Shown here: positions 41,617 to 44,338 of the stretch, in pieces
Layout of the letters: each line of letters begins with the position of its first letter
How positions within the stretch are numbered: position 1 is the stretch's first letter
Assembly: GCA_004565275.1 (NCBI GenBank)
Contig: SDOX01000004.1
Location: forward strand, 5,119 to 50,505
Length of the DNA: 45,387 nt
Reading direction: 5' to 3'
Origin: Nannochloropsis salina CCMP1776
Lineage: Eukaryota > Sar > Eustigmatophyceae > Eustigmatales > Monodopsidaceae
Program-made: the position numbers and the translations under genes
The notes under the pieces: model-generated
Told to the model about the DNA's origin: nothing
Seen by the model: the letters and a program-made list of their open reading frames with translations, nothing else
Databases searched by the model: none

Positions 41617-44338
41617 ATGAAAGATTTCTCTTGCGTTCTCTTCGTCGCTCTCCTGGGCTTTGCAAGCATTTTCACCACCGTGTCTCAAGGGTGTCCGCGG
41701 CTTTCTCTGACGGCTAATGTTAGGCCAAATCCTCGGCGTGGGATCGTAGCGGGCAAGGGAATGGCTAAGATCACCGTCACGCTGAGGAGCAAAGATCCCG
41801 TGGACAACGTGGAGTTTCAGTTGAACCTGCCGGACGGGCTATCGGTTGAGCGAACAGCAATGCGTCCGTCCTCAAAGCCCTATACACCGCCGAAAATTGT
41901 TGAGGATGCGGATGGAGTGACAGCTATTTCCTGGCAGGGTCTCGCTTTCACCAAACGCAAGGGGGGCAAACGCCGCTTTCGTGTCAAGGTGAAGGCTGAC
42001 CAGTGTGCCTCTGAGACGCTCGCGGTGGACGCTTTCGCTTACCTAATGAATGCTACAGACACCTCGTGCATGACGCCGCTGGGCAACCCCGCCATCGTAA
42101 AAGTGCGATACTTGAAACGCAACAAAGACGCGACGTGCGCGCCCACATCAGCTCCTACTGTCAATCCTACGCAACCTTTTGTGCTCCTTGGTGAGGGCCT
42201 GCGCTTCTCTCAAGGGGAGCGACTGGCCCCCTTCGAAGACCGTCGTCTTTCGTTGCACACTGGAATCAATAGGCATAAAGGTATCGTCGCCCGCTACCAT
42301 CCGGAAGATCGACAGCTGCAATCGATCGACACCCCGGAGGCTTGCTATGTATACTGCTCGCTGAACGGGGGCGAGGAAGTACCATTCCTCTTCAGCTGGA
42401 ATACCGTGACGAGCCAGTGCTTCTGCTGCGCCGGGGTGTGCACACCCCTCATCGTCGATCCTGATTACAACGTGTACGAAGCGCTCTTACCCAGAACGCT
42501 TCCTCCAACCTCAGTTCCTCCTGCTACAGCGCCACCAACGGCTCCGCCACCGCCGACACCTACAGCATCGCCTACTCCAGGACCCACTCGTACCCCTACC
42601 CAAGCACCTTCAACGACTCCAACGGCTCCCCCAACGCCGACACCTACAGCATCGCCTACTCCAGGACCGACTCGTACCCCTACTCAAGCACCTTTAACGA
42701 CTCCAACGGCTTCCCCAACACCGACACCTACAGCATCGCCTACCCCAGGACCGACTCGTACCCCTACTCAAGCACCCTCAACGACTCCAACGGCTTCCCC
42801 AACGACCAGTGTGGACAGCCTTCCACTTCAGGATGGCGAAAATGAGCTATACACTTCGGTTGTGAGCGGGGACTATGCGTATTTCGGGTGAGGAGAAAAT
42901 CAGAAGCGACACGCAGCATCGTAAGGTTTGATGCGATCTGAGTTGCTGATACGCTTGGCTCTACTTTCTATGCAGGACTGCCACATCCCCTGGCATAGTG
43001 GTGAAGGTGAGCCTGACCGACTTCAGTCGTGTGGGCAGCCTTCCACTTCAGGATGGCGAAGACAACCTATTCACTTCGGTTGTGAGCGGAGACTTTGCGT
43101 ATTTCGGGTGAGGAGAAAATCAGAAGGAACACGCAGCATCGTAGGTTTTGATGCGACTTGAGTTGCTCAAACGCTCCGCAATACTTTCTATGCAGGACTG
43201 CCACATTTCGTGGCATAGTGGTGAAGGTGAGCCTGGCCGACTTCAGTCGTGTGGACAGCCTTTCACTCGCGGATGGTGAGGAATTTCTAATCACTTCGGT
43301 TGTGAGCGGGGACTTTGCGTATTTCGGGTGAGGAGAAGATCAGAAGCGACACGCAGCATCGTAGAATTTGATGCGATCTGAGTTGCTCAAACGCTTCGCT
43401 CTACTTTGTATGCAGGACTTTCACATCCCCTGGGATAGTAGTGAAGGTGAGCCTGACCGACTTCAGTCGTGTGGGCCGCCTTGTACTTGGAGATTTTGAA
43501 GACTTCCCATCCACTTCGGTTGTGAGCGGAGACTTTGCATATTTCGGGTGAGGAGAAAATCAGAAGCGAATCGCAGCATCGTAAGGTGTGATGCGATCTG
43601 AGTTGCTGATACGCTTCGCTCTACTTTCTATGCAGGACTTACACATTCCCTGGCATAGTGGTGAAGGTGAGCCTGACCAAGTTCAGTCGTGTGGGCAGCC
43701 TTCCACTTCAGATTGGCGAAAACATCCTATTCACTTCGGTTGTGAGCGGGGACTTTGCGTATTTCGGGTGAGGAGAAAATCAGAAGCGACACGCAGCATC
43801 GTAAGGTTTGATGCGATCTGAGTTGCTGATATGCTTGGCTCTACTTTCTATGCAGGACTTACACATCTCCTGGCATAGTGGTGAAGGTGAGCCTGACCGA
43901 CTTCAGTCGTGTGGGCAGCCTTCCACTTCAGGATGGCGAAGACAAACTACGCACTTCGGTTGTGAGCGGAGACTTTGCGTATTTCGGGTGAGGAGAAAAT
44001 CAGAAGCGACACGCAGCATTGTAGGATTTGATGCGATCTGAGTTGCTGATACGCTTCGCTCTACTTTCTATGCAGGACTGAGACATCTCCTGGCATAGTG
44101 GTGCAGGTGAGCCTGGCCGACTTCAGTCGTGTGGGCCGCCTTGTACTTGGAGATTTTGAAGACTTCCCATCCACTTCGGTTGTGAGCGGGGACTTTGCAT
44201 ATTTCGGGTGAGGAGAAAATCAGAAGGAACACGCAGCATCGTAAGGTTTGATGCGATCTGAGTTGCTGATACGCTTCGCTCCACTTTCTATGCAGGACTG
44301 CCACATCCCCTGGGATAGTGGTGAAGGTTGCTCTCTAG
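41617..44338 (+). CDS. Secreted/cell-surface protein with Pro/Thr linker and tandem propeller-like repeats
   Basis: Eight exons: 41617-42887, 42976-43107, 43196-43327, 43416-43547, 43636-43767, 43856-43987, 44076-44207, 44296-44338; about 557 codons. The ATG at 41617 gives a signal peptide ([19 protein letters not shown]); an in-frame ATG at 41524 lies upstream. Then come a beta-rich ~150-residue domain ([20 protein letters not shown] start), a Cys-rich PAN/WSC-like domain ([18 protein letters not shown]), a linker of three 28-residue Pro/Thr repeats, and six and a half copies of a 44-residue repeat with consensus [20 protein letters not shown] then [20 protein letters not shown] and YFG. This resembles a known extracellular beta-propeller-type repeat with AYFGT strands. 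Every repeat exon is 132 bp in symmetric phase 2; all introns are 88 bp. The protein is probably an extracellular or cell-wall adhesion protein; binding partner unknown. Confidence 0.8.
42554..42807 (+). repeat. Three 84-bp coding repeats (Pro/Thr linker)
   Basis: The word CGACACCTACAGCATCGCCT recurs at 42554, 42638 and 42722, an exact 84-bp period encoding 28 residues such as [18 protein letters not shown]. The copies differ at only a few bases. Such Pro/Thr/Ser-rich linkers are usual O-glycosylation regions of wall proteins. Confidence 0.9.
42888..44295 (+). repeat. Tandem exon-intron duplication, 220-bp period
   Basis: Exon starts at 42976, 43196, 43416, 43636, 43856, 44076 and 44296 are exactly 220 bp apart. 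Each unit is a 132-bp exon ending TATTTCGG, followed by an 88-bp intron (GTGAGGAGAAAATCAGAAG ... CTTTCTATGCAG). Introns are about as conserved as exons. Units at 43416 and 44076 share a distinct variant ([14 protein letters not shown]), which suggests a three-unit duplication on top of the single-unit one. Confidence 0.93.

Follow-up and report, generated by a model that had tools for sequence, protein, structure and literature searches.

A contig-end exon array in Nannochloropsis salina encodes a putative seven-bladed beta-propeller with one blade period per exon

The window analysed here, a 45,387-nucleotide stretch of contig SDOX01000004.1 of Nannochloropsis salina CCMP1776, carries a member of a gene family that lies near contig ends, supplies one blade period of a propeller-like repeat per exon, keeps its repeat number almost always at 7 or 14, and varies chiefly at a small set of codons in each blade. 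Considering the fold, the count and the pattern of variation together, we regard it as probable (about 0.72) that this is a secreted, stalked recognition or adhesion family, whose closed seven-bladed propeller is diversified by selection and by exchange of blades under the rule that the ring must close.

RESULTS

Exon–intron structure of the gene

The coordinates of the gene in the window (array C64) and of the features around it are given in Table 1. The initial annotation had described an exact 220-bp exon–intron period, and this was borne out: all seven donors lie at 42888 + 220k and all seven exon starts at 42976 + 220k, so that the six exons of 132 nt and seven introns of 88 nt fall on one grid. 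Tandem Repeats Finder, used without the gene model, delimited the array at 42809-44328 with a period of 220, 6.9 copies, 87% matches, 0% indels and a score of 2284. The accompanying proposal that each exon encodes one 44-residue propeller repeat in symmetric phase 2 was supported by the alignment of the spliced frame with an intronless bacterial protein, L057, which runs end to end with 48% identity over 317 columns (profile comparison probability 100) and across which all seven splice junctions of the window are in frame.

Table 1. Features of the array gene and its surroundings (positions in the window)
Feature	Position	Strand	Source	Remarks
Satellite	40143..41210	+	Tandem Repeats Finder	386-bp period; upstream of the gene
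Whole gene	41617..44338	+	Gene model from splice motifs (predicted)	8 exons, 701 aa
Exon 1	41617..42887	+	Gene model	1271 nt; head domain, linker and N-terminal half repeat; ends in phase 2
Linker	42535..42804	+	Tandem Repeats Finder	84-bp tandem repeat, 3.2 copies; Pro/Thr-rich coding
N-terminal half repeat	42805..42885	+	Strand roles from L057 model	L039:2923-3003; putative strand d of last blade and strands a, b of blade 1
Intron 1	42888..42975	+	Gene model	88 nt
Blade exon 1	42976..43107	+	Gene model	132 nt
Intron 2	43108..43195	+	Gene model	88 nt
Blade exon 2	43196..43327	+	Gene model	132 nt
Intron 3	43328..43415	+	Gene model	88 nt
Blade exon 3	43416..43547	+		132 nt; closest unit in the pool: exon 6, same gene (distance 0.068)
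Intron 4	43548..43635	+	Gene model	88 nt
Blade exon 4	43636..43767	+	Gene model	132 nt
Intron 5	43768..43855	+	Gene model	88 nt
Blade exon 5	43856..43987	+		132 nt; closest to exon 1 (distance 0.045)
Intron 6	43988..44075	+	Gene model	88 nt
Blade exon 6	44076..44207	+	Gene model	132 nt
Intron 7	44208..44295	+	Gene model	88 nt
Last exon	44296..44338	+		43 nt; C-terminal half repeat (putative strand c of blade 7) and stop TAG at 44338
TTAGGG tract	44689..44871	+		~350 nt downstream of the stop codon and ~0.5 kb from the contig end

Across the 18 loci found in the same genome, AG and GT flanked the exon at the expected places in 90 of 95 length-filtered full exons, and all 12 exons that were not 132 nt long differed from that length by multiples of three; as the exon set came from a translated-frame search, which is biased toward frame-keeping exons, these two counts are taken as support and not as proof. 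Successive full exons were separated by 75 to 92 nt, apart from two long gaps of 170 nt (C69, with an exon remnant inside) and 302 nt (C44, with an exon that had missed the length filter). An exact 220-bp period close to another satellite and to telomeric repeats could also suggest a non-coding satellite that resembles exons, yet the spliced frame matches a bacterial protein from end to end, and splice sites and frame are kept at the rates just given, which makes this explanation barely credible.

Predicted fold of the propeller

The core of L057, modelled with six relatives aligned, reached a pLDDT of 95.5 and a pTM of 0.92 and contained 28 strands, laid out as one strand, six times four strands and then three, the first being strand d and the last strand c. 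The full-length L057, folded with two sequences only, gave a pLDDT of 34.9 and a pTM of 0.23 and was set aside. The top Foldseek hits of the core model were seven-bladed WD40 proteins (TMq ~0.8), with YncE also among the nearest structures. Propeller closure, which had been left to structure prediction in the initial annotation, was thus obtained for the relative, a closed ring of seven, and through this model and the end-to-end identity of 48% the window protein is predicted to form a closed seven-bladed beta-propeller as well. On the model, each exon border coincides with the end of a strand b; the N-terminal strand encoded by exon 1 would therefore be strand d of the last blade, as in WD40-type closure.

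At the sequence level, a profile search returned weak hits, all of which we take to be propeller proteins. Pfam gave no WD40 hit for the window protein at E up to 10 or for L057, L058 and L061 at E up to 1, and no stretch over the repeat was significant in the window protein, L057 or L058; for the window protein, Pfam and PDB searches by sequence yielded chance-level hits only. DUF6923, a repeat of unknown function, was touched by two of the six relatives. A NOMO1-like Pfam hit for L057 (3.4e-9) was dropped, as no stretch of it was significant alone.

Intronless relatives in bacteria, archaea and phages

Scans led to L057, a protein of a Wenzhouxiangella MAG, and to L058, a protein of a Micrarchaeota MAG, and the genomes of both contain further matches. 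Relatives also occurred on the phage contigs L060, L061, L063, L072 and L073, of which L073 is near-identical to L072; L062 is identical to L061 in the printed reading frame. Among 369 gammaproteobacterial genomes, two carried a relative (L065 and that of L057 itself). Scans of genome contigs and viral contigs with the first alignments found no relative, and neither did tblastn in phages and in plasmids.

Seven bacterial, archaeal or phage relatives without introns each have a seven-repeat array. The arrangement is half, six full and half repeats in L057, L061, L065 and L072/L073, and half plus six in L058 and L063, in which the last half was read by eye; in the phage sequence L060, seven differently permuted repeats form the first array, and four further repeats with a partial one form another cluster. 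In L061 (L061:3800-4804), the seven repeats lie between a baseplate megatron-like part and the Phage-tail_3 domain of a phage baseplate/tail protein, placed as an inserted domain would be. The layout of the algal gene, a Pro/Thr-rich linker followed by a seven-repeat array, is also seen without introns in L058 (L058:388-2091).

Repeat number in the algal arrays

The 13 arrays with both half-exons were counted, and C7, C62, C70, the low-end copy of C78 and C79 were left out as incomplete. Half, six full and half exons, equal to 7 repeats, were found in 10 of the 13 (C64, C33, C17, C78 high end, C1, C75, C41, C44, C37 and C69), and half, 13 full and half exons, equal to 14 repeats, in two (C31 and C49). 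The remaining array, C46, has half, three full and half exons (4 repeats), with a frameshift in its first full exon. In these counts, one exon of C44 matched only from its seventh position on, two last half-exons were identified by eye (that of C69 and, in C37, the nearer of two copies), and the first half-repeat of C41 is short, with no clear strand d. As for the 14-unit arrays, a distinct dip at lag 7, expected if 14 had arisen by a recent doubling of seven, was sought in C31 and was absent, and the lag-7 signal in C49 was weak (0.112 at lag 7 versus 0.110 at lag 11).

The initial annotation had expected the repeat number to vary freely, and this expectation was not supported. According to such an explanation, the locus would encode a copy-number-variable surface antigen whose units are freely gained, lost or skipped, with the variation in number being adaptive. 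The equal-length phase-2 exons, the near-identical introns and the telomere-side position are consistent with it, as are the four units of C46, the extra exon remnant of C69 and the cutting of C62 and C70 by telomere tracts; however, 12 of the 13 arrays hold 7 or 14 repeats, the 4-unit array is the frameshifted one, C69 keeps 7 repeats beside a decayed exon fragment in its 170-nt gap, and the intronless relatives, including the one modelled as a closed ring, also keep seven. We therefore consider free variation of unit number very unlikely. The repeats appear to come in closed rings (7 or 14), with a unit number that is not free, and the skipping of an exon would open such a ring. The copy-number-variable element is instead the upstream 84-bp Pro/Thr linker repeat, the motif of which occurs 3 times in C64 (window 42535-42804), 3 in C33 (L041), 6 in C17 (L042), 2 in C7 (L043) and 6 in C62 (L045).

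Position of the family in the genome

The genome searched comprises 26.5 Mb in 103 contigs, with TTAGGG tracts present. It has 34 matches to the chlorophyll-binding family, and one of these proteins matches PDB chain VCPI-2 (8zo9) along its full length with about 94% identity; a VCP-type name is suggestive of a eustigmatophyte such as Nannochloropsis or Microchloropsis. With two repeats as queries, 106 exon matches were obtained at 18 loci on 17 contigs. In 17 of the 18 arrays the 3' end points toward the nearer contig end; the exception, C70, consists of one isolated exon and the terminal part of a second, beside a telomeric tract. A TTAGGG tract follows 357-1201 nt past the array in ten cases (C64, C31, C33, C17, C49, C46, C1, C41, C69 and C37) and 61 nt past it in C62. 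C75, the high-end copy of C78 and C79 lie 8.9-11.4 kb from a contig end with a long tract, and the corresponding distance is 6.4 kb for the low-end copy of C78, whose contig end also has a tract; in C7 the contig ends within the array, and beyond the array of C44 a TTAGGG tract was looked for and none was seen. Conversely, the genome contains 19 long tracts (at least 156 nt), and a family member is found at most 12 kb away from 8 of them. The subtelomeric setting noted for the window hence extends to the family, with the 17 arrays facing their nearer contig end and ten lying within 1.3 kb of a telomeric tract.

In C62 (L045:4810-4880) the TTAGGG tract starts inside an array intron, and in C70 (L054:1-470) a telomeric tract adjoins a blade exon halfway along its length. 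Breakage and capping of chromosome ends seem to have taken place within these two arrays, unless the assembly is in error there.

Distribution of sequence variation

Introns had been described as conserved as well as the exons. Their conservation was confirmed, and the equality was not: over 45 exon–intron pairs diversity was 0.106 in introns versus 0.154 in exons, the exon value being higher in 500 of 500 bootstraps, and in the six young arrays (48 exons and 50 introns of 88 nt) it was 0.103 versus 0.155, so that the introns are the more conserved part. The locus is a fast-changing one, as had been suggested, with its variation concentrated in ten codons per blade (2, 4, 20, 23, 25, 26, 29, 30, 32 and 39) rather than in unit count. 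In the six young arrays, nucleotide diversity was 0.42 at these codons, three to four times that of the introns, and 0.079 at the other 33 codons, whose third positions (0.106) were close to the introns. Because the ten codons had been picked for being variable, the arrays were also split in two, the top ten being selected in one half and their diversity taken from the other; in both directions, the selected codons gave 0.36 versus 0.08-0.09.

When codon 1 was set to residue 30 of the L057 core, six of the ten hypervariable codons mapped to the b-c loop (2 and 4) and the d-a loop (25, 26, 29 and 30). In an antiparallel blade these two loops lie on one face, and none of codons 14-18, around the c-d loop of the opposite face, is among the ten. 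The other four, namely 20 and 23 in the outer strand d, 32 at the start of strand a and 39 in the a-b turn, speak against a pure loop pattern.

At the ten codons, pN was 0.435 and pS 0.363 (pN/pS 1.2), with pN exceeding pS in 98 of 100 bootstraps, whereas pN/pS was 0.55 at the remaining codons; computed per array, pN/pS ranged from 0.63 to 1.61, and at codons 4, 25 and 29 pS exceeded pN. Since pS is also high at the ten codons (0.36), a hot spot of mutation or conversion at these sites is conceivable. On this view, the variation of the ten codons would come from local hypermutation or from conversion tracts and not from selection, and the protein would be a structural component of the wall or stalk; the raised pS, the pN/pS of 1.2 and the stalk-like Pro/Thr and collagen-like stretches all fit this explanation. 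However, diversity at the ten codons peaks in the second position (0.47), invariant codons such as 22 and 34 are interspersed among them, and the same ten recur across arrays, on which grounds we consider it unlikely and tentatively favour selection.

Turnover of blade units

Among C64, C33 and C17, no positional orthology of units was found (0.157 versus 0.160 in shuffled order, p = 0.27). In the unit tree, in which 30 of 45 inner branches are weak, the units clustered by array, with 15 label changes versus a shuffled mean of 29.2 and a least possible number of 5. These two results together indicate that units do turn over, in line with the recombining array envisaged in the initial annotation. 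Between C64 and C17, identity was 95.4% in the head exon, 97.4% in the downstream flank, 91.4% in the introns and 83.5% in the blade exons, suggesting that blades change faster than all around them; the blade exons were again lowest in the other two pairs of these arrays (0.843 and 0.851), and the introns of C64 and C33 (0.896) were no better than the head exon (89.9%).

C64, C17 and C33 share 90-97% identity in their head exons and flanks, indicating that these copies are young, and seven might thus merely have been inherited from one seven-unit ancestor, with too little time to change and no constraint from closure. This appears quite unlikely, given that units of the three arrays tested are non-orthologous by position and cluster by array, that older arrays (within-array nucleotide identity 0.48-0.64) likewise have 7 repeats, and that the larger arrays hold precisely 14 repeats. 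Part of the constancy in number could be due to shared descent.

Head domain, stalk and upstream satellite

Judged by eye, the window protein starts with a signal-peptide-like sequence, suggesting a secreted protein in agreement with the surface role proposed initially, and its head contains Cys. A genome search with the head domain gave 64 matches, some of which are fragments of a single gene; the domain is far commoner than the propeller, and some head genes have open frames of up to 898 codons. In C37 (L053:1849-4329 reversed) and C49 (L044:2478-4602), the head domain is adjoined by a long collagen-like stretch of Gly, Ala and Thr, and the exons at this stretch presumably join to the propeller. 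In C17 (L042:5619-7227 reversed), the head and linker are in a different reading frame from the propeller half-exon, reflecting either a break or an assembly error. Copies of the upstream satellite, 95.6% identical, precede two other head genes (C17 and C78); as it is common to only two other loci examined, the satellite is not a general part of the system.

DISCUSSION

The results are best explained by the following scenario, in which the fold is that of the bacterial relative L057 and the family evidence comes from one genome. Exon 1 would give the outer strand d that closes the last blade, each of the six full exons would give strands c-d-a-b, and the last 43 nt would give strand c, forming a WD40-type 'velcro' ring. 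The need of the ring to close may keep arrays at 7 or 14 units despite homogenisation within arrays and mixing between chromosome ends. Some ten positions in each blade, the majority of them in the b-c and d-a loops of a single face, may be under diversifying selection, with the other residues held constant. The gene product would be secreted on a Pro/Thr-rich or collagen-like stalk, and its variable face would most likely bind variable partners, such as microbes, viruses or other cells, so that a function in recognition or adhesion is suggested.

A more far-reaching version, which we put forward tentatively and hold to be rather doubtful, is a telomere-seated recognition repertoire, in which a shared pool of blade exons is exchanged between chromosome ends, closure serves as a proof-reading step that retains multiples of seven alone, and ends that break within an array become capped there. 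If it were true, new binding faces could arise without loss of the fold, a form of receptor diversification with a built-in integer constraint. The family appears to be a natural case in which protein topology, through ring closure, determines how many units a recombining DNA array holds, with diversification on one face of the protein. An alga that can be cultured thus allows two questions to be tested: whether the number of tandem repeats is policed by the closing of the ring, and whether a single-celled ochrophyte has a diversified recognition repertoire at its telomeres, as compared with the repertoires suggested in brown algae and shown in fungi.

A literature search, with subscription journals and preprints mostly outside its reach, found no description of this propeller family. 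Brown algae are ochrophyte relatives of this alga. According to the available text of PMC11378527, which cites Zambounis et al. 2012 on this subject, brown-algal ROCO genes have LRR exons of 72 nt with one repeat per exon in phase 2, and a few positively selected sites per repeat lie on a putative ligand face. The algal array resembles these exons in having one repeat per exon, equal exon lengths and phase 2 (PMC11378527, available text). In the same source, however, the brown-algal LRR is an open solenoid of variable number, with alternative splicing, in an intracellular GTPase, whereas the present array has 132-nt blade exons, a predicted closed ring of 7 or 14 units, a probably secreted product and a place at chromosome ends; variable repeat number of the brown-algal type was not found in this family.

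In Podospora anserina, the HNWD, HET-D, HET-E and HET-R proteins have highly similar WD40 repeats that undergo concerted evolution within and between genes (PMC1805685; PMC2873952, both as available), and diversifying selection acts on paired codons of the d-a loop and b-c turn in HNWD propellers (PMC1805685). The hypervariable codons of the algal blades, with their pN/pS of 1.2, similarly lie mostly in the b-c and d-a loops. In contrast, the fungal proteins are intracellular NOD-like receptors with a variable repeat number (for example 11 in het-R and het-E1; PMC1805685; PMC2873952) and WD40 sequence, which the algal repeat lacks. No NACHT or HET domain of the HNWD type was hit by Pfam in the window protein. 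In their available text, the word 'intron' is absent from PMC2873952 and occurs once in PMC1805685. The algal propeller is predicted to share with WD40, YncE/YVTN and YWTD proteins the seven-bladed ring, with a WD40-type closure by the N-terminal strand predicted from the L057 model; in the Pfam searches, its repeat was assigned to none of these sequence families. By analogy, the algal family would work like the brown-algal LRR receptors and the fungal HNWD propellers, while being a member of neither.
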